Origin: Candidatus Sulfopaludibacter sp. SbA3
GTDB lineage: Bacteria > Acidobacteriota > Terriglobia > Bryobacterales > Bryobacteraceae
NCBI GenBank assembly: GCA_945890485.1
Contig: CAMDCN010000007.1
Span: forward strand, 310,001 to 374,000
Reading direction: 5' to 3'
DNA: 64,000 nt
This document shows, piece after piece, positions 25,380 to 38,163 of this stretch (within the stretch, counting starts at the first letter, position 1; every line of letters starts with the position of its first letter). Position numbers and translations under genes: made by a program. The notes beneath the pieces were generated by a model, which saw only the letters and a list, made by a program, of their open reading frames with translations, searched no databases and was not told the origin of the DNA.

Positions 25380-26198
25380 GTGTCTGGAGTCTTGTACTTG
25401 ATTGCAACGCCGATAGGCAACCTGGAAGATATGACCATCCGAGGGTTGCGACTGCTACGTGAAGTGGATGTGATCGCCTGCGAGGACACCCGGCATACGC
25501 AGCGGCTGCTCGACCATTTTGCCGTTACGACTCCGTGTGTAAGCTACCACGAACACAACGAAGCCGCCAGGGCTGAGCAGTTGGTGCAGCGGATCGTGGG
25601 CGGCCAATCCGTCGCGGTGGTGAGCGACGCCGGAACGCCGTTGATCTCGGACCCGGGCTATCGGGTGGTGCAGGCCGCGATCGAGGCCGGAGTCACCGTG
25701 ATTCCCGTGCCAGGCGCTTCGGCCGTGCTGGCGGCGCTCGCGGGTTCCGGTTTAGCCACGGACGCGTTTTGCTACGCCGGATTCCTGCCGCCGAAGCAAG
25801 GGCAGCGGCGGAAGGCTCTTGAAACGTGGGGGGCGGTTGAGGCGACGCTGATCTTCTACGAGGCGCCATACCGAATCCTGGAGGCACTGGCCGATGTGGC
25901 GTTCACATTGGGAGATCGCCACATAGTCTTAGCCCGAGAACTGACCAAGCTGCACGAAGAGTTTCTGCGGGGCAGGGTTTCCGAGGTGCTCGCGACGCTA
26001 TCGCAGCGGCCGGTGCAGAAGGGGGAAATGACATTGCTGATTTCCCGCGAGAAGGCGGTGATGGGGGAGGAGCTTCCTTTAGCCGAAGCGGTGCGGCGCT
26101 TGGTTTCCGGTGGCATGGACCGCATGGAGGCGATCAAGAAGGTGGCCAAGGACCGGGGGATGGCCAAACGCGAGGTCTACGCCGCGTTGGAGCGATAA
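25380..26198 (+). CDS. rsmI: 16S rRNA (cytidine-1402 2'-O)-methyltransferase
   Basis: RsmI methylates C1402 in the decoding centre using SAM. The GTG at 25380 gives MSGVLYLIATPIGNLEDMTIRGL, the conserved N-terminus of this tetrapyrrole-methylase-fold family. Further signatures are CEDTRHTQRLL, YHEHNE, VVSDAGTPLISDPGYRVV, VPGASAVLAALAGSGL, FLPPKQGQRRK and FYEAPYRI. The length (272 residues) is usual. The C-terminal helical part (MDRMEAIKKVAKDRGMAKREVYAAL) is also typical. It is divergent from the JAMM-like gene and followed by glpD after ten bases. Confidence 0.95.
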   Translation: MSGVLYLIATPIGNLEDMTIRGLRLLREVDVIACEDTRHTQRLLDHFAVTTPCVSYHEHNEAARAEQLVQRIVGGQSVAVVSDAGTPLISDPGYRVVQAAIEAGVTVIPVPGASAVLAALAGSGLATDAFCYAGFLPPKQGQRRKALETWGAVEATLIFYEAPYRILEALADVAFTLGDRHIVLARELTKLHEEFLRGRVSEVLATLSQRPVQKGEMTLLISREKAVMGEELPLAEAVRRLVSGGMDRMEAIKKVAKDRGMAKREVYAALER

Positions 26199-26208
26199 TC
26201 AAGTTTGG

Positions 26209-27660
26209 ATGCAGGCACTCAGCAAGCTGACGGACCGGACGTACGACGTTGCAGTAATTGGCGGGGGGATCATCGGGGCCGGCGTGGCCCGGGATGCGGC
26301 CTTGCGCGGATTGTCCGTGGCGTTGGTGGAAAAGGGAGATTTTGGCAGCGGCACTACAGCCGGTTCGACGCGCCTGATCCACGGCGGACTGCGGTATCTC
26401 GAAATGTATGATTTCGGGCTGGTCCGGATGGATCTGCGGGAGCGGGAGATTCTGCTGCGGATCGCACCCCATCTGGTGAAGCCGCTGGAGTTCCTAATTC
26501 CGTTCTATGGGGCCTCGCTATGGTTCCGGACCAAGATGCGGGTGGGAATGGCGCTCTACGATCTGCTGAGCTACGACAAGAGTTTGCCCAATCATCGGAT
26601 GCTTTCGGCCGAGGAGACCCTGCGGGAGGAGCCCTCGCTGCGGCCAGAAGGATTGCAGGGCGCCGCGGCGTACTACGATGCACAGGTATCGATGCCGGAA
26701 CGGCTTTGCCTTGAGAACATTATCGACGCGGAACTGCACGGAGCCGTGGTTCGGTCGTACACCGAAGTGGTGGGAGCGGTGCAGGAAGGCGGCCGCGTAA
26801 GGGCCGTGCGCGTACGATGCGCCGAGAGTGGCGAAGCCGGGGAGTTGCGGGCGAAGGTTTTCGTGAATGCCACCGGAGCATGGTTTGACCGGGTTGCTCG
26901 CCAGACAGGTGATGCCCATCAGTCGCGAATTCGAACGACCAAGGGAATCCACATCACGTGCGAACGGATGAATCTGAAGGCGAACGTGCTGTTTTCGCCG
27001 CTCGATGGGCGGCTGTTCTTCGTGATTCCTCTCCTGGGCCAATGTTGGATCGGCACAACCGACACCGACTTTACCGAGGACCCGAGCACCGTGCGAGCCG
27101 ACGGCGATGACGTGGAGTATCTGCTGAAGTCGGTGGAACCATTTTTCCCACGCGTCCGGGAGTTGGCCGTGTATTCTTCAAACGCCGGGGTCCGCGCGCT
27201 GGTGAAGCAGGAGGGCTCGGCATCTTCCGTATCCCGCATGCATAAAATCGCCGAGACCCAGCCAGGGATGATCTCCGTGCTGGGGGGCAAGATCACCGGA
27301 TATCGCGCCATTGCTGAAGAGGCGGTGGACGCAGTGTGTACCCAGTTGAAGCACGGCCAACCGTGCCGAACGCACCAGGAACTCCTGCCGGGAGCACTGG
27401 CCGAGGCGCCGGCAGACAGGGAGGAGGCGGTGCGGTGGGCGGTAGAAAGGGAGCACTGTTGGCATGTGGCCGACTACCTGCTGCGCCGGAGGCCAGCCGC
27501 ATTCGCCGCGGACCAGGGACGGGGAGACGCCGAAGAAGTGGCAGCCGCCATGGGGGAGGCGCTTGGTTGGGACGCGAGCCGGCGGGAGCGGGAATTAGAG
27601 CGGTATCGGGGCGAGGCTGACCGGGCGCTGTTGTTTCGAGGCGAAATGGCGCGGAAGTAG
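26209..27660 (+). CDS. glpD: Glycerol-3-phosphate dehydrogenase (FAD-dependent)
   Basis: Oxidises glycerol-3-phosphate to dihydroxyacetone phosphate at the membrane and passes electrons to quinones. The start at 26209 gives MQALSKLTDRTYDVAVIGGGIIGAGVARDAALRG with the FAD-binding dinucleotide fold at the N-terminus. The GlpD signature SGTTAGSTRLIHGGLRYLE follows, then WIGTTDTDF, VLGGKITGYRAIAEEAVD and a C-terminal helical domain. At 483 residues it is near the usual length. No good Shine-Dalgarno precedes the ATG, so translation may depend on coupling with rsmI. No glpF/glpK neighbours are present. Confidence 0.92.
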   Translation: MQALSKLTDRTYDVAVIGGGIIGAGVARDAALRGLSVALVEKGDFGSGTTAGSTRLIHGGLRYLEMYDFGLVRMDLREREILLRIAPHLVKPLEFLIPFYGASLWFRTKMRVGMALYDLLSYDKSLPNHRMLSAEETLREEPSLRPEGLQGAAAYYDAQVSMPERLCLENIIDAELHGAVVRSYTEVVGAVQEGGRVRAVRVRCAESGEAGELRAKVFVNATGAWFDRVARQTGDAHQSRIRTTKGIHITCERMNLKANVLFSPLDGRLFFVIPLLGQCWIGTTDTDFTEDPSTVRADGDDVEYLLKSVEPFFPRVRELAVYSSNAGVRALVKQEGSASSVSRMHKIAETQPGMISVLGGKITGYRAIAEEAVDAVCTQLKHGQPCRTHQELLPGALAEAPADREEAVRWAVEREHCWHVADYLLRRRPAAFAADQGRGDAEEVAAAMGEALGWDASRRERELERYRGEADRALLFRGEMARK

Positions 27661-27806
27661 TGGTCGGGATAATCTGAGGACTTAGTGTTCGCTTTTTCTT
27701 CACATTTTCGTGAAGTCTGCCGAGGGGGCCGACGATAGACTGGCAGGGCCAAGAAATCGGTCGGCTAGAATCCGATGCGATTGAGGATCGGGCCTTTTGA
27801 AAGACT

Positions 27807-28295
27807 ATGGCGACGATAGACACTCAGCAATTTGGAACGCTTCAGTACAGCGACGATGCGATCTTCGAATTTCCGGAAGGGATACCTGGATTCGAGCAGG
27901 CGCATCATTTCGTCTGCGTGGAGCGACCCGGTCTCCGGCCGATCACGTTTCTGCAGAGCGTGGACGATCCCGGGGTCTGTTTTATCACCTTGCCGGCGAA
28001 GGCAGTGGAGCCGGAATACGAGCTGGATCTGGCGAGAGAGGACCTGCGAGTGCTAGGATTGGCGCAGATGGAGGAGAGTCTGGCCTGTCTGGCAATCGTC
28101 TGCATGCCGCAAGATGCGGCGCCGACGGCAAACCTGTTGGGTCCAGTGGTACTCTCTCGGGAGACGATGCGCGGGATCCAAGCCATTCGCGAAGATAGCA
28201 GGTATTCGGCGGTTCACCCGTTGAGAACGAACCGGACGGAGTCTGTTCCGAGCGCGACGGCATCCAAAGCGGCAACAGGAGAGACGGAGTGCTGA
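27807..28295 (+). CDS. fliW: Flagellar assembly factor FliW
   Basis: FliW binds flagellin in the cytoplasm and, when free, binds CsrA and removes it from flagellin mRNA. The 162-residue product has the conserved FEFPEGIPGFEQAHHFVCVE, FLQSVDDPGVCFITLPAK and LVVLSRET-type segments (here VVLSRETMRGIQAI), plus a serine/threonine-rich tail of about 20 residues. The 146-base upstream gap contains a CTTCAC/GTGAAG inverted repeat (27698-27715) but no promoter I can trust. The gene overlaps csrA by seven bases and is followed by three flagellin genes, the classic fliW-csrA-flagellin arrangement of Bacillus-type regulation. Confidence 0.94.
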   Translation: MATIDTQQFGTLQYSDDAIFEFPEGIPGFEQAHHFVCVERPGLRPITFLQSVDDPGVCFITLPAKAVEPEYELDLAREDLRVLGLAQMEESLACLAIVCMPQDAAPTANLLGPVVLSRETMRGIQAIREDSRYSAVHPLRTNRTESVPSATASKAATGETEC

Positions 28296-28609
28296 TAATC
28301 CGGCGCAGGCGGGGAGAGTCCATCACCGTTGGTGATGAGGTGGAGATCGAAATCCTGGAGACCTCGCCGACCCAAGTGAAGCTCGGAATCCGGGCACCGA
28401 AGAGTGTATCGGTGCTGCGGAAAGAGATCATCGTGACCCGAGATCAAAACCGTGTCGCCTCCGGTTCCCCGGCCGTAGACGACAAACTGAACACGTTGGC
28501 CGAGCAGTACCGAGCCGCCGAAGCCGGCATGGAATTACCGGATCCGGCTGCACCCAATGTCCTCGAAGTATCCCTCCCGCCCGCCCTTGATCCGAAGCGC
28601 AATTCCTAA
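28289..28609 (+). CDS. csrA: Carbon storage regulator CsrA with C-terminal extension
   Basis: CsrA is a dimeric RNA-binding protein that recognises GGA in hairpin loops. The GTG at 28289 gives MLIIRRRRGESITVGDEVEIEILETSPTQVKLGIRAPKSVSVLRKEI, which contains the full CsrA beta-fold. The L4 and R44-type RNA-contact residues are represented by LIIRRR and RAP near those positions. At 106 residues it is longer than the usual 60-75; the extra 40 residues are acidic and proline-rich (MELPDPAAPNVLEVSLPPAL), perhaps part of the FliW-binding face. It overlaps fliW, and AGGAGA upstream could be an autoregulatory target. Flagellin leaders downstream carry candidate sites. Confidence 0.93.
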   Translation: MLIIRRRRGESITVGDEVEIEILETSPTQVKLGIRAPKSVSVLRKEIIVTRDQNRVASGSPAVDDKLNTLAEQYRAAEAGMELPDPAAPNVLEVSLPPALDPKRNS

Positions 28610-28680
28610 AGCGCTTTCGGCCCCCTCTCAGATTAACGAATGAAAGGCAGCCCGCCGCACCAAAGGGCGGACTGCGTTCC

Positions 28681-28744
28681 CGGGAATGGATTCCCGCATC
28701 CCCCATCCTCTGGCGCTCGCCAGAGCTGTTTCAAGGAGTGAAAC
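28681..28744 (+). promoter_or_regulatory. Flagellin 1 leader with two CsrA-type hairpins, one over the Shine-Dalgarno
   Basis: Site 1 is a hairpin CGGGA-AUGGAU-UCCCG (28681-28696) presenting AUGGAU in a six-base loop, a very good CsrA core. Site 2 is GUUUCA-AGGAG-UGAAAC (28728-28744), a perfect 6-bp stem whose loop is the Shine-Dalgarno itself, ending immediately before the ATG at 28745. Between them a further stem CTCTGGC/GCCAGAG (28708-28725) would shorten the distance between sites. A CsrA dimer bridging both loops would block ribosome binding. The hairpins are read directly from sequence; CsrA binding is inference. Confidence 0.75.
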
Positions 28745-31129
28745 ATGTCCTTTCGCATCAACACGAATATTGCATCGCTGCAGTCGCGCGAGTACCTGCG
28801 GACGACTACCGAACAGCAGGCTAAAGCCATCGGGCGGGTTACGTCCGGGCTGCGGATTCTCTCGAGTGGAGACGACGCCGCCGGCCTGTCCATCGCCAAC
28901 AGCTTTCGCAGCGACCAAGCCGTCCTGCAGCAGGGTATCCGCAATGCCAATGATGGTCTGAGCACCCTGCAAACGATTGACGGCGGCATCAACAACATCA
29001 GCAAATTGCTGGACCGCGCGCGCACGCTGGCCACGCAGTCGGCCTCGGGCACCTTCACGGGAAGCCGCGAGGTGCTGAATACGGAATTTTCGAGTGTTAT
29101 CGGAGAAATCGATCGCCAGGCGCAGTCTATCGGCCTCAATACCGGCGGCGAGTTCGCGCGCGCGTTATCCGTTTTCGTCGGTGGTGGCAAGAGCTCGAAC
29201 GGCATCAATGCCATCCAGAATGGCGCTTCCAATGTTGACCTGTCGAACTCGACGGTGGACGCCAAGAGTCTCGGGCTGAAGGGGTCGCAGGCACAGGGTG
29301 TGCCGGCCGTTGATATTGGCACCGGATCGGCCGCCACAAGTGTATCGGCAATCATCAACGATCCGACCAACCTGGCGTCCTTGAACGCCGCCGGATTCAC
29401 CGATTTCTATTTTCGTGGGCCTGGATTCGGCGATGCCGACCGGGTGAAAGTGTCCGTCAACCTTTCGGGTGTCACTAATGTGGACAACCTGGTTGGAGCC
29501 ATCAACGCCGCCATCGAAAGCGCGGGACAGGTGGTGAGCCCCGCCGCGACCGCTTTCCAGAACGCTAACGTGCGCGCCTCGGTGATCACGGCTCCGGACG
29601 GCAAGCGTTCGTTGGCTTTCGCCTCGGCAAATTCCGCTTTTCAGGTAGCGGCGGGCGACCAGACCGCAAATGCTCTTTTGGGAAATGTGACCTCCTCATC
29701 GAATCCGACGGGGACATCGCTCATCAACACCCTAACGGGTGGTTCGACGGCCGCCGCCGCCGCGACCACTTTTGGGGCCTCGGGTGCAGGGACGGTTACT
29801 GTTCGATTCCAGGGCGCTGGCCTCGCGGCTCCGGTGGACATCGACCTAACGGTGGCGGCTGGCACGACCATCGATCAGGCGTTGACCACCCTTTCGACCG
29901 CTGTGGCGGCAAATGCTTCGCTACAGGCCGCAGGCATCGAAACTGTCACAACGTCACCGGGTTCGGCACTGGTTTTCAGTAATTCGCGCGGTGAACGGTT
30001 CGAGGTGCAGAGTTCCGGCGACTTAAACAACCGGCTTGGCCTGGGCAGCTTCCGGGCCTCGGGCGGTGCGAGCGGTTCGTTTGACTATGCCGCGGTGACC
30101 GGTTCCGGTGGAACCTTTGCAGCCGCGGCGCAGACGCTCGAATTTTCGCTTGGCGGAGGCTCGACGATCTCGCTGGCGATCACGCCGACGGCGGCGACGA
30201 TTGCCGGAGCGACGCAAGCCCTCAACGCCGCGTTTGCCGGCAACACGGAGCTGGCGGCAGCCGGCTTGGTGGCCACCAACGACGGCACCGATATTACGAT
30301 TACGAGCAGCAGTGATACCCGCTTCCGTCTTGCGACCGTCGGAGCGGCCAACGTCTTCGGCTTCAACGCCGCCGGGGCCACCGGTGTCGCCGACGTGGCT
30401 GAGACGCAGGGAGGCAATACAACGATCAATCAGTTCATCTCTGGCGGCACGCAACAGACGGCACTGATTCCGTTCAGCGGCATTCGCAGTGGTGGCGACG
30501 ACCAGACGATTACGCTGACGGCGGCCGAGAACGGCAATGCCGAGCAGTCTCTCGCCGTGGTTTTGCGAAACGACACCATTCGGAACGCCGGTACAGTGGA
30601 CGAGGCAATCACGGCGATCAATACAGCGTTGCACCAGTCGAACAACCCGACGCTGCAAAAAGTGTTCGCGGTGAAGGCGAAGGCTTCGGCTGGAGGCCCC
30701 GAAGGTATCCAGTTTGTCAGCACGCTGAATTCGTTCAAGGTTACGGTTGGAACGAACGGGGGAGCGAGCGGCTTGGGTTCTCAAGGGACGGTGATCTCCT
30801 CCGCCACGACCGGGACGGGGGCCACGGCCGACATCAGTACGCAAGAGAGTGCTCAGGCGGCGGTTTCGGCGTTGGCCGATGCTGTGACATCGCTGGGCCA
30901 AGCGCAAGCTGTGGTTGGCCGTGGACAGAATCAGTTCACCTTTGCCGTGAATCTGGCGGCCAGCCAATTGACTAATCTTGCCGCGGCGGAATCGCGCATC
31001 CGCGACGCGGACTTGGCCGAAGAGGCGGCCAACCTGACGAAGGCTCAGATTCTTTTGCAGGCTGGCGTTTCGGCGCTGGCCCAGGCGAATTCGGCACCCG
31101 AACAGGTACTGTCGCTGCTCCGGTCGTAA
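28745..31129 (+). CDS. Flagellin 1, giant form (794 aa)
   Basis: The N-terminal D0/D1 domain (residues 1 to about 150; MSFRINTNIASLQSREYLR, TSGLRILSSGDDAAGLSIAN, DGLSTLQTIDGGINNISKLL) and the C-terminal D1/D0 domain (about 710-794; ESRIRDADLAEEAANLTKAQ) are canonical flagellin. The roughly 450-residue middle is an insert of about four beta-rich modules near 218-320, 342-436, 462-543 and 574-673. Each has a strand-helix-strand layout with segments such as TVDEAITAINTAL and LVATNDGTDITITS, reminiscent of flagellin IN-type repeats. They would form outer domains on the filament surface. Translation is probably controlled by CsrA through the leader. It is the most divergent of the three paralogues. 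Confidence 0.95.
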   Translation: MSFRINTNIASLQSREYLRTTTEQQAKAIGRVTSGLRILSSGDDAAGLSIANSFRSDQAVLQQGIRNANDGLSTLQTIDGGINNISKLLDRARTLATQSASGTFTGSREVLNTEFSSVIGEIDRQAQSIGLNTGGEFARALSVFVGGGKSSNGINAIQNGASNVDLSNSTVDAKSLGLKGSQAQGVPAVDIGTGSAATSVSAIINDPTNLASLNAAGFTDFYFRGPGFGDADRVKVSVNLSGVTNVDNLVGAINAAIESAGQVVSPAATAFQNANVRASVITAPDGKRSLAFASANSAFQVAAGDQTANALLGNVTSSSNPTGTSLINTLTGGSTAAAAATTFGASGAGTVTVRFQGAGLAAPVDIDLTVAAGTTIDQALTTLSTAVAANASLQAAGIETVTTSPGSALVFSNSRGERFEVQSSGDLNNRLGLGSFRASGGASGSFDYAAVTGSGGTFAAAAQTLEFSLGGGSTISLAITPTAATIAGATQALNAAFAGNTELAAAGLVATNDGTDITITSSSDTRFRLATVGAANVFGFNAAGATGVADVAETQGGNTTINQFISGGTQQTALIPFSGIRSGGDDQTITLTAAENGNAEQSLAVVLRNDTIRNAGTVDEAITAINTALHQSNNPTLQKVFAVKAKASAGGPEGIQFVSTLNSFKVTVGTNGGASGLGSQGTVISSATTGTGATADISTQESAQAAVSALADAVTSLGQAQAVVGRGQNQFTFAVNLAASQLTNLAAAESRIRDADLAEEAANLTKAQILLQAGVSALAQANSAPEQVLSLLRS

Positions 31130-31175
31130 CAGTGGTCGGTGAGGTTGCGAGGAGTGAATAGCGCGAGACTGCGCA

Positions 31176-31233
31176 GGTGGATGAATTCACCGGCCGGGAA
31201 GGAGTGGCGGTACGCCGTTTCAAAGAGAGGAAC
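31176..31233 (+). promoter_or_regulatory. Flagellin 2 leader with decayed CsrA-type hairpins
   Basis: This leader aligns with that of flagellin 3. The first hairpin keeps the left arm CGGGA and loop AGGAG (31195-31204), but the right arm is TGGCG instead of TCCCG, so the stem is lost. Before the ATG, GUUUC (31217-31221) can pair with GGAAC (31229-31233) using one G-U pair; its loop is AAAGAGA and the GGA now lies in the stem. An upstream GGTG/CACC hairpin (31176-31191) is kept. Weaker or altered CsrA control is inferred. Confidence 0.55.
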
Positions 31234-33627
31234 ATGTCATTTCGGGTCAACACGAACGTCGCGGCTTTGCAGTCACGGGAGTATCTGCGCCAGACGTCGG
31301 AGTCTCAGGGAAAAGCGATCAGTCGCGTAACCTCCGGACTCCGCATCATCGCTAGCGGCGACGATGCGGCCGGATTGGCGATTGCCAATACATTCCGGAG
31401 TGATCAGGCCGTTTTGGCGCAGGGGGTCCGCAACGCCAACGACGGACTGAGCACCCTGCAGACGCTTGATGGCGGAATCAACAACATCAGCAAACTGCTT
31501 GACCGGGCACGGACTCTGGCAACCCAGTCAGCCTCTGGAACGTTTACCGGTGACCGGAGTGTGTTGAACGCCGAGTTCACGTCCGTCATGGGAGAAATTG
31601 ATCGTCAGGCGCAAGCGGTTGGCCTGGCGACGGGAGGTGCGTTTGCGCAGTCGCTGTCGGTGTTCGTGGGTGGCGGGCGCACGGCAAACGGCATTTCGAC
31701 AACGACGAACGGGTCGGTGGAAGTGGACCTGTCGACCTCCACGGTGGACGCTAAGAGTCTCGGAATGAAGGGTGTGCAGGCGCAGGGCATCAGCACAATC
31801 GACATCGGAACCGGTTCGGCGGGCACCAGCGTTCAGGCCATTGTGAAGAACGCGACCAACCTCGCCTCGACCGCCGTTAGCGGTTTCACGAACTTTTACT
31901 TCCAGGGTCCGGGGTTCAGCGACGGCGAACGAATTAAGGTTGCGGTTAGCCTCTCCGGGATTACGAGCGTCGACAATCTGGTAGAGAACATCAATTCCGC
32001 AATTGATGCGGCGGGCAAAGCTTCGTCTGAAGAGGCCACTTCCTTTCAGAATGCGGGCATCCGGGCGACGGTGGCGACGAATGCGGCCGGCCAGAAGTCG
32101 GTTGGATTCACCTCGTCCTCGGTGGCATTTCAGGTGGCGGCCGGCGACCGGCTGTCGAATGCTCTCCTCGGCAACGTGACGTCAAGCTCGAACCCCGCGG
32201 GCCGAACCCTGGGGAACCTCGCACTGACCAGCGCGAACGTAATGCCTAGCGGGACAATGTTCGGAGCTACCGGGGCCGGCACGGTGACATTCCGGTTCCA
32301 GGGCGCCAATTTGACGAGCCCCGTGGACCTTGCCATAGGGGTGACCGCGACGACCACCATCGATCAGGCACTCGTCGAACTGAGTTCGGCCGTGGGAAGT
32401 AACGCGCTACTCCAAGCCTCTGGCATTACGACGATATCGGCGGCGCCTGGCAGTCCGCTCATTTTCGGGAGCGCCCGAGGTGAGACATTCGAAGTGCGGA
32501 CATCGGGAGATGTCAATAATCTCTTTAGCATGGGATCCTACCAAGGATCGGCGGGCGCCGGCGGAACCTTCGACTACTCGTCAATTACGGGGGCTGCGGG
32601 GACGTTCGCGACCGCCTCGGAGTTATTGCAATTCTCGATTGGGGGCGGACCGAATGTGTCCTTCTTTGTTGCGCCGGTGGCGGCAACGATTGCCGGGGCG
32701 ACGACGGCATTGAATGCGGCCTTTGCCAGCGATGTCCAAACGGCCGCCGCGGGATTGGTGGCAACGAACGATGGTACGGTGATAACGATCACGAGCACAA
32801 ACGGTTCCCGCTTCCGCTTGAGCTCCGTAAGCGCCACCAACATCTTCGGCTTCAACGATCGAGGTGGAGCGCAGGCGACTGGCGGCACAGGCAACGCTGG
32901 GTCGAGTTTGGGTACGGAGATTCACTACTTCGCTTCCGCTGGCGCCCAACAGACCGGCCTGTTAAGTTTCTCAGCCATTCGAAACGGCGACGACGACCAA
33001 ACCATCACCCTGATGGCGACCGACCCGGCGGGAGCCGAGCAGTCGCTAGCCGTGGTCCTGCGCAACGACATCACGTTGCGGAATGCAAGCACCGTGGATG
33101 AAGCGATCCACGCGATCAATAGTGCGCTGCAGCAATCGAACAACGCGACCTTGCGACAGATCGTGGCCGTTAAGGATAAAGCGACGGGGACTGGCCCGGA
33201 GGGCATCAGATTCATCAGCACTCTTGCATCGTTCCAGGTCGGCATCGGCACCAACGGCGGTGGCACGGGGATAGGCAGCCAAGGCACGGTGGTCACGGCT
33301 GCGACGGTGGGCACCGGCGCGACGGCGTCGATCAGTAGCCAGGGTGCGGCAGAGAACGCCGTCGCCGCGCTGGGTGAAGCCATCGCAAAACTCGGCACGG
33401 CGCAGGCCGTCGTGGGCCGGGCCCAGAACCAGTTCACCTATGCCGTGAACCTGGCGCAGTCGCAGTTGACGAATCTGGCGGCCTCAGAATCCCGGATCCG
33501 CGATGCGGATTTGGCCGAGGAGGCCGCCAGCCTGACCAAGGCGCAGATATTGCTGCAGGCTGGCATTTCGGCGCTTTCGCAGGCGAACTCGGCCCCGGAA
33601 CAGGTCCTGACGCTGCTGCGGAGTTAG
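31234..33627 (+). CDS. Flagellin 2, giant form (797 aa)
   Basis: The start at 31234 gives MSFRVNTNVAALQSREYLRQ; a frame from 31177 is rejected because it reads through the leader hairpins. Flagellin D0/D1 ends are nearly identical to those of flagellin 3 (SGLRIIASGDDAAGLAIAN at the N-terminus, ESRIRDADLAEEAASLTKAQ at the C-terminus). The central four-module insert is present but diverges where paralogues carry VTGGS (here ALTSANVMPSG) and at GGTGNAGSSLGTEIHYFA. It is the middle of three tandem copies and has no obvious promoter of its own, so it may be read from upstream. Its altered leader suggests different expression from its neighbours. Confidence 0.95.
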   Translation: MSFRVNTNVAALQSREYLRQTSESQGKAISRVTSGLRIIASGDDAAGLAIANTFRSDQAVLAQGVRNANDGLSTLQTLDGGINNISKLLDRARTLATQSASGTFTGDRSVLNAEFTSVMGEIDRQAQAVGLATGGAFAQSLSVFVGGGRTANGISTTTNGSVEVDLSTSTVDAKSLGMKGVQAQGISTIDIGTGSAGTSVQAIVKNATNLASTAVSGFTNFYFQGPGFSDGERIKVAVSLSGITSVDNLVENINSAIDAAGKASSEEATSFQNAGIRATVATNAAGQKSVGFTSSSVAFQVAAGDRLSNALLGNVTSSSNPAGRTLGNLALTSANVMPSGTMFGATGAGTVTFRFQGANLTSPVDLAIGVTATTTIDQALVELSSAVGSNALLQASGITTISAAPGSPLIFGSARGETFEVRTSGDVNNLFSMGSYQGSAGAGGTFDYSSITGAAGTFATASELLQFSIGGGPNVSFFVAPVAATIAGATTALNAAFASDVQTAAAGLVATNDGTVITITSTNGSRFRLSSVSATNIFGFNDRGGAQATGGTGNAGSSLGTEIHYFASAGAQQTGLLSFSAIRNGDDDQTITLMATDPAGAEQSLAVVLRNDITLRNASTVDEAIHAINSALQQSNNATLRQIVAVKDKATGTGPEGIRFISTLASFQVGIGTNGGGTGIGSQGTVVTAATVGTGATASISSQGAAENAVAALGEAIAKLGTAQAVVGRAQNQFTYAVNLAQSQLTNLAASESRIRDADLAEEAASLTKAQILLQAGISALSQANSAPEQVLTLLRS

Positions 33628-33648
33628 GTAGCCGTTCAGCGGCGGGGG

Positions 33649-33666
33649 TCTGGGCCCTATCCCAGA
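33649..33666 (+). terminator. Weak terminator-like hairpin after flagellin 2
   Basis: TCTGGG (33649-33654) and CCCAGA (33661-33666) form a six-base stem with loop CCCTAT, extendable by GG/CC beyond one mismatch, followed by a short pyrimidine stretch. It may separate the flagellin 1-2 transcript from the independently promoted flagellin 3. Confidence 0.4.
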
Positions 33667-33696
33667 ACCTTCTTACCCTATTCCTCCAAATTTTTC

Positions 33697-33722
33697 TAAA
33701 ACTCTCCTGATCGCTCCGATAA
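33697..33722 (+). promoter_or_regulatory. Candidate sigma-28 (FliA) promoter of flagellin 3
   Basis: TAAA at 33697-33700 is followed after 14 bases by TCCGATAA at 33715-33722, seven of eight bases of the GCCGATAA -10 element. Sigma-28 promoters usually have about 15 bases between these parts. Transcription would start near 33730, producing a leader of about 60 bases that begins just before the conserved hairpins. No equally good match is seen before flagellins 1 and 2. Confidence 0.65.
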
Positions 33723-33733
33723 GCCTCTTGTAA

Positions 33734-33789
33734 CCGGTGCATTCACCGGGCGGGAAGGACTCCCGGATAGTCGTTTCAAGGAGAGAAAC
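33734..33789 (+). promoter_or_regulatory. Flagellin 3 leader with hairpin and two CsrA-type sites
   Basis: Three hairpins occur in order: CCGGTG-CATT-CACCGG (33734-33749), a perfect stem near the predicted RNA 5' end; CGGGA-AGGAC-UCCCG (33751-33765), with GGA in the loop; and GUUUC-AAGGAGA-GAAAC (33773-33789), with the Shine-Dalgarno in the loop directly before the ATG at 33790. The two GGA cores are 23 bases apart, suited to one CsrA dimer. The first hairpin may protect the 5' end. Confidence 0.75.
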
Positions 33790-36186
33790 ATGTCATTTCG
33801 TGTAAATACTAACGTGGCGTCTTTGCAGTCGCGGGAATATCTGCGTCAGACTTCAGAGTCGCAAGGGAAAACCATCAACCGCGTGACCTCCGGGTTGCGC
33901 ATCATCGCCAGCGGCGACGACGCGGCCGGGTTGGCGATCGCCAACGGGTTCCGTAGCGACCAGGCGGTTCTGTCGCAGGGCGTTCGGAACGCCAACGACG
34001 GATTGAGCACTTTGCAAACGCTGGACGGCGGTATCAACAACATCAGCAAACTGCTGGACCGGGCGCGGACCTTGGCGACTCAGTCGGCCTCTGGTACGTT
34101 CACGGGCGACCGGGGAGTTTTGAACACCGAGTTCTCGTCGGTGATCGGTGAAATTGACCGGCAAGCCCAAGCGGTTGGCCTGACGACGGGTGGCGCTTTC
34201 GCCAAGTCGCTATCGGTCTTCATCGGTGGTGGTCGCAGTGCGAACGGCATTTCGACGACGACGAACGGATCCGTGGGTGTGGACCTGTCGACCTCGACGG
34301 TGGACTCGAAGAGCCTTGGTTTGAAGGGCGTGCAGGCGCAGGGCATCAGCACAGTGGATATCGGTACGGGCTCGGCTTCGACGAGCGTATCGGCGATTGT
34401 GAACGATGCGACGAACACTGGCTCGACGGCGGTAGGCGGGTTCACGGACTTTTACTTTAAGGGACCGGGATTCAGCGATAGCGAGTCGATCAAGGTGGCG
34501 GTGAATCTGTCGGGTGTGACGAATGTCGACAACCTGGTGGAGAACATCAACTCGGCGATCGAGTCGGCCGGCAACGCATCGTCCCAGCAGGCGACAGCTT
34601 TCAAGAACGCAGGTATCCAAGCGACCGTGGTTACGGATTCGACTGGCCAGAAGTCGATTGGCTTTACCTCGGCGTCTTCGGCGTTCCAGGTAGCGGCCGG
34701 GGACCGGTTGTCGAATGCTCTGCTGGGTAATGTAACCTCCAGTTCGAACCCGACGGGTCTCACGTTGGCCAACACTGTCACTGGTGGCTCGAACACGGCG
34801 GCGACAACGACAACGTTCGGTGCGACGGGCGCCGGCACAGTAACGGTCCGTTTCCAGGGTGCGAATTTGACCAGCCCGGTCGACATCGCACTGACTGTCG
34901 CGGCGGGTACGACCGTTGATCAGGCGCTAGAGAGCTTGAGCTCCGCGGTTGGCAGCAATGCGGATTTGCAGGCGGCAGGAATCACGACGCAGAGCGCTAC
35001 GGCGGGATCGGCGCTGGTGTTTGCCAACGCTCGCGGCGAGAAGTTCGAGGTTTTGGCTTCTGGCGACGTGAACAACCGTCTGGGCTTGGGTTCCTTCCAG
35101 GGATCGACTGGTGCAGGTGGCACTTTCGACTACTCGGCGATCACGGGCGCGGCGGGTACTTTTGTGGCTGCTTCGGAAACGTTGGAATTTTCCGTGGGTG
35201 GCGGCGCCAAGGTAGCGCTGGCAGTCACTCCGACAGCAGCAACAATCGCCGGAGCGACCACGGCTCTGAACGCGGCGTTCGCTGGCGACACGACGTTAGC
35301 TGCCGCCGGATTGGTGGCGACAAATGACGGCACGGCGATCACGATCACGAGTTCGAACGGTTCCAACTTCCGCCTGAACTCCGTGGGCGCAACGAACGTC
35401 TTTGGCTTCAACGACCGCGGCGGCGCGCAGGCGACCGGCGTAGCCGATGTTGCCGAAACGCAGAGCGCTGGTACCGACATCAACTTCTTCGCGGCCGCCG
35501 GGTCGCAGCAGACCAGTCTGTTGAGCTTCTCGGCGATTCGGAGCGGTGCGGATGACCAGACGATCACTCTGACGGCCAACAACACTGCGGGTGTTGAGCA
35601 GTCTTTGGCCGTGGTGCTGCGCAATGACAGCACTGTCCGCAATGCAGGTACAGTGGACGAGGCGATCGACGCGATCAACACCGCGCTGCAACAGTCGAAC
35701 AACGATACGTTGAAGCAGATTGTTGCGGTGAAGGACAAAGCGAACGCCGGCGGCGCAGAGGGCATCAAGTTCGTCAGCAACCTGTCGTCGTTCAAGGTTG
35801 GCATCGGCACCAACGGTGGCGGCACGGGTATCGGCAGTCAAGGCACTGTGGTGACGGCGGCGACGGTTGGCACCGGCGCAACCGCCTCAATCGACAGCCA
35901 GGATTCGGCGGAGAAGGCCGTTACTGCTCTCGGCGAGGCCATCGCAAAGCTCGGCACCGCGCAAGCCGTCGTCGGCCGTGGTCAGAATCAGTTCACCTAC
36001 GCGGTGAATCTGGCCCAGTCGCAGTTGACCAACTTGGCCGCTTCCGAATCCCGGATCCGCGACGCGGACTTGGCCGAAGAAGCTGCCAACTTGACCAAGG
36101 CGCAGATCCTTCTGCAGGCCGGTATCTCTGCTCTTTCGCAGGCGAACTCGGCTCCGCAGCAGGTGTTGTCACTCCTCCGGGGCTAA
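33790..36186 (+). CDS. Flagellin 3, giant form (798 aa)
   Basis: Canonical flagellin ends (MSFRVNTNVASLQSREYLRQ, DGLSTLQTLDGGINNISKLL; ESRIRDADLAEEAANLTKAQ) flank a central insert of four beta-rich modules, with clear strand-helix segments such as TVDQALESLSSAV and TIAGATTALNAAFAG. The sequence is closest to flagellin 2. It probably has its own sigma-28 promoter and a strong intrinsic terminator after the gene, so it can be expressed as a single-gene late class transcript. With an intact double CsrA site in the leader, it and flagellin 1 look like the principal FliW/CsrA-controlled subunits. The surface modules contain many Ser/Thr and may be glycosylated. Confidence 0.95.
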   Translation: MSFRVNTNVASLQSREYLRQTSESQGKTINRVTSGLRIIASGDDAAGLAIANGFRSDQAVLSQGVRNANDGLSTLQTLDGGINNISKLLDRARTLATQSASGTFTGDRGVLNTEFSSVIGEIDRQAQAVGLTTGGAFAKSLSVFIGGGRSANGISTTTNGSVGVDLSTSTVDSKSLGLKGVQAQGISTVDIGTGSASTSVSAIVNDATNTGSTAVGGFTDFYFKGPGFSDSESIKVAVNLSGVTNVDNLVENINSAIESAGNASSQQATAFKNAGIQATVVTDSTGQKSIGFTSASSAFQVAAGDRLSNALLGNVTSSSNPTGLTLANTVTGGSNTAATTTTFGATGAGTVTVRFQGANLTSPVDIALTVAAGTTVDQALESLSSAVGSNADLQAAGITTQSATAGSALVFANARGEKFEVLASGDVNNRLGLGSFQGSTGAGGTFDYSAITGAAGTFVAASETLEFSVGGGAKVALAVTPTAATIAGATTALNAAFAGDTTLAAAGLVATNDGTAITITSSNGSNFRLNSVGATNVFGFNDRGGAQATGVADVAETQSAGTDINFFAAAGSQQTSLLSFSAIRSGADDQTITLTANNTAGVEQSLAVVLRNDSTVRNAGTVDEAIDAINTALQQSNNDTLKQIVAVKDKANAGGAEGIKFVSNLSSFKVGIGTNGGGTGIGSQGTVVTAATVGTGATASIDSQDSAEKAVTALGEAIAKLGTAQAVVGRGQNQFTYAVNLAQSQLTNLAASESRIRDADLAEEAANLTKAQILLQAGISALSQANSAPQQVLSLLRG

Positions 36187-36215
36187 TTAGCTCCCGGTAA
36201 CCTAACTCCAAACTT

Positions 36216-36249
36216 GGCCCGGGTTGTCGGAACAATCCGGGCCTTTTTT
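36216..36249 (+). terminator. Intrinsic terminator of flagellin 3
   Basis: GGCCCGGGTTGT (36216-36227) pairs with ACAATCCGGGCC (36232-36243), allowing one G-U pair, and is followed by six T (36244-36249). This is a strong Rho-independent terminator 30 bases after the flagellin stop codon. Confidence 0.92.
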
Positions 36250-36300
36250 CACCGCCGCCGCCCTCGCCATTCCACCTCGTCCCGCCGATGGATACAGTAG

Positions 36301-38163
36301 ATGACGGCCGCGGCTCGAATAATTGAAAAAGCACAGCAACTGCACCAAGCTGGCCGTTGGCAGGAGGCCGAACGCCTCTACTTGCAGGCTCTGGAGCAAG
36401 CACCGGGAGAAACCACCGGGCTGCACCTGCTCGGCTTGTTGCACGCCGAGACGGGCCGAGAAGATACCGCGGCACAACTCCTGTCTGCCGCGATTGGCAT
36501 CGAAGGACCATCGTCCCATCTTTGCCGTAATCTGGGGATCATCCTCGAAAGGCAGGGCAAGCGGGAAGCCGCCGTGGCTTGCTATCGCCAGGCGGTCACG
36601 ATCCAGCCAAGGGCCACCGACATCTGGGTTCGCCTTGCGGAGGTACTGGGCGGGCTCGGGCGTTTTGGCGATGCAACACAGGCGTGGCGCCGGGCGCTTG
36701 AAACAAGCTGCGATCCGGTGGAAATGCAGATTCCGTGGCGATTGGCCTGGGCCAAGGCCCTGGTGCTGGCGGGAGATCGGGAGTCAGCGAGAGAAATGCT
36801 CGGGCGGATTCTGCGGATGGACCCAGGCCACATCTCCGCACGCTACGACCTTGGCGTCGTCCTCATGCAGTTGGATCGCGTACCTGAGGCCGTGGCAGAA
36901 TTCGCGAAGGTGGTGACCGCCGACCCAGTCCATGCAGAGGCGCACAACAATCTAGGCGTTCTCCTGCACAGTCTCGGGGACACCGACCGGGCGCGCCACC
37001 ACTACATAGCATCCCTCGAAGCCCGTCCCGACACGATCACGGCCCGGTATAACCTTGGAACGCTGCTCCAGGAAACCGGCGAGATCGAGCTGGCGATCAA
37101 CGAGCTCCGTCGCGTCCTGGATTACGACACCAGACACGAGGGAGCCTGGACCAACCTGAGCAACTGCCTGCTTAGTCTCGGCGATCCGGATGCAGCACTC
37201 GAATGCGCCGGGAAGGCATTGGCCCTCGCTCCAGGCCACCGGTCGGCAACTTGGAATGCGGGGCTCGCGCAACTTACGATTGGACGGTTGCGCGAAGGCT
37301 GGTCCGGATACGAAGTACGGTTTGAGCTAGGCGGGGGAACCCGGCGGCGACCCTTCCCGATGCCGCTTTGGCGAGGGGAGCCGCTCGCAGGTAAGACCAT
37401 CCTGGTCTACGCGGAACAAGGGTTGGGCGATACGCTGCATTTCTGCCGGTATCTGGCCAAGCTGGAGGAGCGCGGGGCGCGGGTGCTCTTTGAATGCCCC
37501 GAGAAACTCGCGCCGGTACTTGGGACGCTTCGCCCAAAGCCGGAATTGGTCGTAGCTCCCATCAATTCCATCCCCTTCGCTGATTATCACGTTCCCCTGC
37601 TCAGCTTGCCCGGGTTATTCGAAACCACACTGAATTCTATTCCGGCCTATGGCCGCTACCTTGCTGCCGATCCAGAAGCTCAGGCGCGATGGCGGCATCG
37701 CGTGGCTCCGCTGCGCCCACGGCGGCTAGTTGGGTTCGTTTCGCAGGGCAACCCCAAGTACAAAAACGATCGCAACCGAAGCATCCCGTTCTCGGAGTGG
37801 GCTCCGCTCCACTCTCTGCCCGGCATTGCCATGGTGCATTTGCAGTTTGGGGTGGCGGCGCCGCCGGAACTCGCCGATCTTGATCTGGGGCCGGAAGTTG
37901 GCGACTTTGCCGACACCGCCGGACTCGTGGAAGAGTTAGATCTGGTCATCACAGTGGATACGTCCATGGTCCACTTGGCCGGAGCACTCGGTAAGGAGAC
38001 TTGGCTGCTCCTGCCGTACGCTGCCGATTGGCGTTGGCTCCGGGGAAGGAGCGATTCACCTTGGTACCCATCTGTTCGCATCTTCCGCCAACCGCGGCCG
38101 GGAGACTGGCGATCTGTCATGAGCGACGTTGCGGCTGCCATTGTGTATGAACTCGCGCCTTAA
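36301..38163 (+). CDS. TPR protein with C-terminal glycosyltransferase-like (GT9/heptosyltransferase-type) domain
   Basis: Residues 1 to about 330 form some eight or nine tetratricopeptide repeats (AGRWQEAERLYLQALEQAP, YNLGTLLQETGEIELAINEL, WTNLSNCLLSLGDPDAAL). The remaining 280 residues resemble GT-B glycosyltransferases: ILVYAEQGLGDTLHFCRYL (donor-side loop common in heptosyltransferase-like proteins), VGFVSQGNPKYKNDRNRS, and the C-terminal DLVITVDTSMVHLAGALGKETWLLLP, matching the GT9 sugar-nucleotide segment. Such TPR-glycosyltransferase fusions often glycosylate proteins. Directly downstream of three flagellin genes, it is a good candidate for flagellin modification; this role is inferred from position only. 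Confidence 0.85.
   Translation: MTAAARIIEKAQQLHQAGRWQEAERLYLQALEQAPGETTGLHLLGLLHAETGREDTAAQLLSAAIGIEGPSSHLCRNLGIILERQGKREAAVACYRQAVTIQPRATDIWVRLAEVLGGLGRFGDATQAWRRALETSCDPVEMQIPWRLAWAKALVLAGDRESAREMLGRILRMDPGHISARYDLGVVLMQLDRVPEAVAEFAKVVTADPVHAEAHNNLGVLLHSLGDTDRARHHYIASLEARPDTITARYNLGTLLQETGEIELAINELRRVLDYDTRHEGAWTNLSNCLLSLGDPDAALECAGKALALAPGHRSATWNAGLAQLTIGRLREGWSGYEVRFELGGGTRRRPFPMPLWRGEPLAGKTILVYAEQGLGDTLHFCRYLAKLEERGARVLFECPEKLAPVLGTLRPKPELVVAPINSIPFADYHVPLLSLPGLFETTLNSIPAYGRYLAADPEAQARWRHRVAPLRPRRLVGFVSQGNPKYKNDRNRSIPFSEWAPLHSLPGIAMVHLQFGVAAPPELADLDLGPEVGDFADTAGLVEELDLVITVDTSMVHLAGALGKETWLLLPYAADWRWLRGRSDSPWYPSVRIFRQPRPGDWRSVMSDVAAAIVYELAP

Follow-up and report, generated by a model that had tools for sequence, protein, structure and literature searches.

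The window, a stretch of 64,000 nucleotides from a genome that the preliminary description had suspected to be acidobacterial and that indeed belongs to the family Bryobacteraceae, carries on its forward strand a flagellin locus preceded by two regulatory genes. A fliW gene (27807-28295; PF02623, E 1.1e-27), whose product is the expected antagonist of CsrA, and a csrA gene (28289-28609; PF02599, E 5.4e-18) lie immediately upstream of flagellin 1, as had been stated at the outset. Three flagellin genes follow in tandem, with starts at 28745, 31234 and 33790; they encode proteins of 794-798 aa combining the PF00669 and PF00700 domains, flagellin 1 (28745-31129) being 794 aa long. The csrA gene has a GTG start and is the sole CsrA match in the source genome. 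Its product keeps Arg44 (in the motif VLRKEI) and has a C-terminal extension, and the same genome encodes FliW. The best PDB match of this CsrA, aligned over residues 2-80, is 5dmb_D, from an entry that we take to be a FliW complex. Asn54, which presumably has a role in FliW binding in B. subtilis, is present in 88 of the 89 Arg44-type CsrA proteins of the family. The fliW and csrA genes overlap by 7 nt (28289-28295), which suggests coupled translation.

The leader of flagellin 1 contains three hairpins on the + strand. Hairpin 1 (28681-28696, CGGGA-AUGGAU-UCCCG) is a candidate upstream CsrA site, in which a CGGGA/UCCCG stem carries the loop AUGGAU with GGA core 1 at 28688-28690. Hairpin 2 (28728-28744, GUUUCA-AGGAG-UGAAAC) holds the Shine-Dalgarno (SD) sequence in its loop and abuts the ATG at 28745; GGA core 2 (28735-28737) lies inside the SD AAGGAG, and 7 nt separate it from the ATG. 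The leader therefore places an A(N)GGA site in each of two hairpin loops, one of these sites overlapping the SD. Between them, the 18-nt spacer hairpin (28708-28725, CUCUGGC-GCUC-GCCAGAG), announced as having 7-8 bp, has 7 bp. The preliminary description had given these two GGA-in-loop hairpins, the second ending at the flagellin 1 ATG, and a distance of 47 nt between their GGA cores; both points can be read directly from the sequence. It had also proposed folding of 28640-28760 as a check, and the minimum free energy (MFE) fold of this segment includes all three hairpins (z -2.95; 1 of 200 shuffles equally stable), with weaker z values of -2.28 and -1.60 when other end points are chosen. GGA 2 is predicted to be unpaired with a probability of 0.98-1.0, and the three bases of GGA 1 with probabilities of 0.59, 0.73 and 0.94. 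The drawn pairing of the 5' arm of hairpin 1 has a probability of about 0.58 and a rival fold exists, the competitor probably being a pairing with the C-run immediately downstream. An additional hairpin is found above hairpin 1 (28647-28675, GCAG-CCCGCC / GGGCGG-ACUGC), and its counterpart in the same-genus genome G113 (GCAGCCCAC / GUGGGCUGC) seems to have kept the pairing. An Rfam search of 26000-37000 returned two matches, both far under the gathering threshold and neither inside the leader; a described Rfam family was thus rejected as the identity of the leader, since none fits.

The combination of the two hairpins is rare by chance. When the 100 nt preceding flagellin 1 were subjected to 20,000 dinucleotide shuffles, the SD hairpin arose alone 54 times and hairpin 1 alone 249 times, both together at the strength seen at flagellin 1 never. 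A score of at least 12 for both hairpins is reached by flagellins 1 and 3 alone among the 338 in-frame ATGs of long ORFs examined within the window. At flagellin 3, hairpin 1 (CGGGAAGGACUCCCG, 33751-33765, +) and hairpin 2 over the SD (GUUUCAAGGAGAGAAAC, 33773-33789, +) are both present in the sequence with a GGA spacing of 23 nt; the MFE fold of this leader favours other pairings. Looping out the 18 bases of the spacer hairpin had been expected to bring the flagellin 1 cores to about the distance found at flagellin 3: the resulting 29 nt come near to these 23 nt without equalling them. The flagellin 2 leader (31184-31236, +) is a degenerate copy that scores 0 for both GGA-loop hairpins. Its hairpin 2 now has the GGA in the stem, and its hairpin 1 is unable to close. 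As for transcription, a sigma-28-like promoter (TAAA-N15-CCGATAA, 33697-33722, +; one match versus 0.03 expected, with the consensus that we assume for this factor) precedes flagellin 3. The region ahead of flagellin 1 yielded no sigma-28-like site. A scan of 27600-33800 gave no sigma-70-like promoter anywhere in that stretch and no terminator-like site in the interval from csrA to flagellin 1. Flagellin 1 may therefore be transcribed by read-through from fliW-csrA.

Loss of the stems or GGA loops in close relatives had been named in advance as the result that would speak against the element, and here the outcome is divided. The comparison covers the first-flagellin leaders of 15 out of 19 same-genus genomes, source genome included. 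Eight of them (the source genome, G004, G149, G113, G195, G198, G196 and G197) keep the three-hairpin leader, and seven (G135, G192, G193, G194, G199, G201 and G202) have no hairpin 1 at its usual place before the first flagellin. In G193 a GGGAAUGGACUCCC hairpin is located further upstream, and in the six of these seven genomes whose examined stretch includes a second flagellin, that flagellin bears GUUUCAAGGAGAGAAAC. Two keepers, G196 and G198, have an MFE fold that takes the alternative hairpin 1 pairing, with a probability of about 0.3 for the drawn arm. In G197, two consecutive hairpins replace the spacer hairpin, as would be expected if the spacer has the role of being looped out.

Seven of the eight keepers can be aligned without gaps, and their mean pairwise identity is 94% in the 66 nt that precede the ATG. 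In the same genomes, two stretches above the leader reach 70% and 55%, and third codon positions of the flagellin 56%; among the stretches compared at the locus in these seven genus genomes, our own included, the leader is the most conserved. Variation is limited to 8 of 69 alignment columns. One is the free N of ANGGA, which precedes GGA 1 and is U or C; three belong to the spacer hairpin loop, two are the partners of one spacer pair (U-A, U-G or C-G), and the remaining two are unpaired bases. Judged from this alignment, the leader appears to have changed almost only at positions that CsrA would permit or in ways that preserve pairing. Since 18 of the 19 leader pairs are invariant, covariation in the genus amounts to one pair and lies within shuffles (132/500). 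These data bear on two alternatives. The first is that the SD hairpin is the sole CsrA site of flagellin 1, the two other hairpins (hairpin 1 and the spacer) being structural remnants of the region between csrA and the flagellin gene. The absence of hairpin 1 from its usual place in 7 of the 15 genomes and the alternative pairing open to its 5' arm agree with this reading; but in the seven aligned genomes neither the stem nor the GGA of hairpin 1 varies, next to sequence of 55-70% identity just above, and hairpin 1 recurs family-wide with covarying stems, so that we regard such an origin as unlikely. The second alternative attributes the likeness of the flagellin leaders to recent duplication or gene conversion and not to selection. 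Flagellins 1-3 are indeed tandem paralogues with similar SD regions, but the leader exceeds the third codon positions in identity (94% versus 56%) in the same genomes. Furthermore, the stem sequence differs between genera with pairing kept, and the compensatory changes seen speak against this explanation, to which we give hardly any weight.

At the family scale, at least 139 of 150 genomes have a flagellin match. We collected 147 distinct flagellin leaders from 161 starts (13 duplicates and one short leader being dropped); they derive from selected stretches and do not comprise every flagellin of the genomes with a match. Both hairpins are present in 25 of these 147 leaders, compared with a mean of 1.5 and a maximum of 5 in 50 shuffles. 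When the GGA was picked by position only in 128 dereplicated leaders, at least four contiguous pairs centred on it were found in 14/121 leaders at the SD site (mean 4.5, maximum 11 with right halves permuted) and in 27/103 at the upstream site (mean 6.3, maximum 15). A strong upstream GGA hairpin occurs in 58 of the 128, and in 45 of those 58 its GGA lies 22-29 nt from the SD GGA; the 47 nt of flagellin 1 are an outlier in this respect.

Covariation in the leaders of relatives, another check proposed beforehand, is found between genera but, as seen above, does not stand out within the genus. Eighteen leaders were aligned by sequence only, having been picked from 27 candidates for shared spacing and SD type; the nine others, with different SD types, were excluded before alignment. 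The two stems are paired in 79% of cells (at most 59% when slid) and have a covariation score of 0.263 (at most 0.157 when slid). Double-sided changes affect 13 cells against a shuffle mean of 5.9 (1/500 as high), but sliding by +1 or +3 gives 14. Five pairs are changed on both sides (shuffled mean 3.7), which is within shuffles, as is the pair-type count. For instance, the SD pair 47-61 is U-A in seven leaders, A-U in three, C-G in two and unpaired in six. From the 18 leaders, RNAalifold recovered no pair of hairpin 2 and just three of hairpin 1, in our view owing to a one-position shift of the stem register from genus to genus; counts over two named registers were used in place of its consensus. 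Compensatory changes are thus observed at the family level, with some measures inside the controls, and both stems covary family-wide, which supports selection on two GGA-loop hairpins before flagellins.

Such hairpins might nevertheless act without CsrA, hairpin 2 being an intrinsic translation or stability element (e.g. for temperature sensing or RNase protection) whose GGA is simply the SD. Any SD would put a GGA in hairpin 2, and some family leaders retain hairpin 1 without GGA: among 78 leaders behind an Arg44 CsrA, the core is TGA in 7, AGA in 5, GGT in 4 and CGA in 2. Yet hairpin 1, which contains no SD, has GGA in 50 of the 68 of these leaders with a scored core (partly labelled by hand), the base that varies freely is the one before GGA 1, GGA is central in both loops and fliW-csrA adjoins them. 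Hairpins independent of CsrA are accordingly rather improbable, and we retain CsrA as the expected ligand.

A covariance model, R1, was built from the 18 aligned leaders, which include that of flagellin 3 but no flagellin 1 or 2 leader of the genus. In the 7.1-Mb source genome, R1 ranks flagellin 3 first (a training member), flagellin 1 second and flagellin 2 fourth, the last at 18.1 bits with mispairs; 12 of its 15 matches there lie away from flagellin starts and are chance-like. In the family, 59 of 237 genomes have a match at E <=0.01, and all 29 loci treated as new are at flagellin starts (27 placed by rule and two, with cut flanks, by eye). Among 119 genomes of the phylum, our own included, scores reach 24.5 bits in other families, and of the 19 matches treated as loci, 0 are at a flagellin start. 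R1 E-values are optimistic, 33 of these 119 genomes matching at 0.05. Because such chance-like matches score up to 24.5 bits, the score of flagellin 1, 21.4 bits, has no significance by itself. Evidence for the element as modelled by R1 appears confined to Bryobacteraceae. A different arrangement is seen in the family locus L089 (genome G100, with at least nine Flagellin_N matches): six flagellin starts lie within 11.6 kb, the flagellins are short (about 280-300 aa) and their leaders have no SD hairpin.

Taken at the level of sequence comparison, our results support the preliminary reading of the leader in terms of CsrA and FliW. The hairpins, the placement of the GGA cores, the linked fliW-csrA genes, the conservation and the family covariation are all in the sequence. 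The window holds a CsrA with Arg44 and a C-terminal extension, FliW and the leader, and on these grounds 28681-28744 is very probably a translational control element of flagellin 1 that is repressed by CsrA and relieved by FliW. A(N)GGAX motifs in loops are the targets of CsrA dimers, which can span two sites separated by 10-63 nt (PMC7652899), and the tightest CsrA/RsmE site is reported to be ANGGAX directly on a stem (PMC4005645). We infer CsrA binding, repression, relief by FliW and bridging as follows. A CsrA dimer, encoded directly upstream, would grip hairpin 1 and hairpin 2 with one RNA pocket each. Since hairpin 2 carries the SD, CsrA bound there would cover this sequence and keep the ribosome off. 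In B. subtilis, secretion of flagellin liberates FliW, which strips CsrA from the leader (PMC7652899, PMC7366521); likewise, flagellin export would here free FliW, which would remove CsrA and allow flagellin synthesis. The 18-nt spacer hairpin would shorten the path between the two sites so that a single dimer could bridge them; however, 47 nt are already inside the bridging range, and the spacer helix therefore need not matter. Flagellin 3 would be under the same control element as flagellin 1. Flagellin 2 has lost both GGA-loop hairpins, and its decayed element would therefore be expected to confer weaker repression.

The preliminary description had likened this leader to that of Bacillus hag. 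The parallel holds for the logic of two CsrA sites, one over the SD, with relief by FliW (PMC7652899), and FliW is described as touching the extended C-terminus of CsrA in B. subtilis (PMC7652899). The likeness is drawn at the level of site layout; as a difference, three flagellin genes are present here, two of them with an intact element. By analogy, the closest known case is instead flaA of Campylobacter jejuni, in which a leader of 45 nt forms two ANGGA stem-loops and the second of these covers the ribosome-binding site (PMC4894983); compensatory leader changes have been reported in other Campylobacter, and FliW antagonises CsrA at flaA (PMC4894983, Dugar 2016). The leader presented here shares the paired ANGGA-type stem-loops, the downstream one over the ribosome-binding site, and the CsrA-FliW pair, with CsrA binding inferred in our case. 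It differs in belonging to another phylum, in its third (spacer) hairpin between the sites and in having fliW-csrA directly upstream. An ANGGAX hexaloop atop a stem is also found in the Pseudomonas RsmE sites of hcnA and RsmZ (PMC4005645); the antagonists there are sRNAs, whereas FliW is expected here. The use of FliW against CsrA in Acidobacteria was proposed earlier from gene presence (PMC4682653), and work on FliW and CsrA also exists for Clostridioides and Geobacter. Among the matches listed in the open-access literature, no title or abstract opening describes an Acidobacteriota flagellin leader. The mechanism is thus known in kind; what is new is the description of such a leader in this phylum, together with its spacer hairpin and a sister clade whose CsrA has no Arg44.

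Residue 44 of CsrA splits the family. Most genomes have Arg, and one Bryobacteraceae clade does not (L128-L150, L006, L016, L060, L062, L078, L103 and L105). A quick tree of FliW and flagellin N-termini, with CsrA left out and the Pro44 relatives L116 and L268 (no FliW) excluded, groups this clade as a single one with one change (SH-aLRT 95, 98 rows), with Ala44 in 20 of 20 clade rows; a few relatives of the clade have Met or Pro. Among 22 leaders behind an Arg44-less CsrA, the hairpin 1 core is AGA in 14, GGA in one and TGA in one, and six have no hairpin, whereas GGA prevails behind Arg44 CsrA (50 of 78, 10 being unscored). In reading these counts, it should be noted that 36 of the 100 core labels were set by reading, not blind to CsrA type, and the rest automatically, and that the automatic procedure took the spacer hairpin in the genus of the window, so that relabelling moved the Arg44 GGA rows from 38 to 50 of 78. 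The loop in this clade mostly has AAGA in place of AGGA. A Fisher test of Arg44 loss against AGA (p 7e-6) was set aside as evidence, because it ignores relatedness, and an independent-pairs test of the link has one pair only. In two rows of the clade (L006 and L078) the csrA reading frame continues across the flagellin leader, and csrA translation could disturb the leader hairpins there.

The Arg44-less protein is the only CsrA in 18 of 23 genomes checked, with Ala at residue 44 in all 18; five genomes outside these 23 (G015, G157, G063, G102 and G066) have Ala, Met, Ser or Thr at 44, and four have two CsrA matches. The 23 distinct Ala44 proteins have Met4 (23), Ser5 (18) and Arg45 (20), and Arg5 is found in 87 of 89 Arg44 proteins. 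Median dN/dS is 0.13 for Ala44 proteins (160 pairs), indicating strong purifying selection, and 0.42 for Arg44 proteins (1,148 pairs), in both cases over non-independent pairs with pS 0.1-0.6. In other named records, Arg occupies position 44 in 39 of 40 distinct CsrA proteins, and in the fortieth, L228, a gap places it one residue earlier; this sample excludes L268 (Bryobacterales) and is biased, the query having been built from Ala44 proteins. Two genomes, G073 (L019, L060) and G148 (L016, L084), each contain two fliW-csrA-flagellin modules, one with an Arg44 CsrA and one with an Arg44-less CsrA.

The R44A change in E. coli CsrA is reported to abolish binding and regulation (PMC7652899), R44A ranks among the worst changes of C. 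jejuni CsrA (PMC6692469), and a GGA-to-AGA change has served to abolish RsmE binding (PMC4005645). Either change by itself abolishes binding in model systems, yet most of the clade combines the two, with the parts of the system kept. It is conceivable, if somewhat doubtful, that the Arg44-less CsrA lineage has acquired a new RNA specificity and co-evolved with its flagellin leader target, the contact being rewired. Arg44 was lost once on the tree, and the link with AGA therefore goes back to one event. Moreover, GGA has been lost from hairpin 1 several times in the family with Arg44 retained. Given this single origin and the GGA losses under Arg44, rewiring is proposed as a hypothesis and not as a result. 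A supported Arg44 clade (L027, L071, L191 and L193), in which hairpin 1 is AAGGUU, has also lost GGA there.

Altogether, these data provide comparative evidence for a flagellin-FliW-CsrA switch in Acidobacteriota, where it had previously been proposed from the presence of fliW only; at the level of the leader, such a switch had been described before for Bacillus and Campylobacter. It has been suggested that CsrA has an ancient function in the control of flagella (PMC4894983), and the present case agrees with this view. The spacer hairpin makes it possible to study in a natural leader how a CsrA dimer bridges two sites, and with the Arg44-less sister clade the long-standing rule that Arg44 and GGA are essential becomes directly testable with natural proteins and their natural targets.
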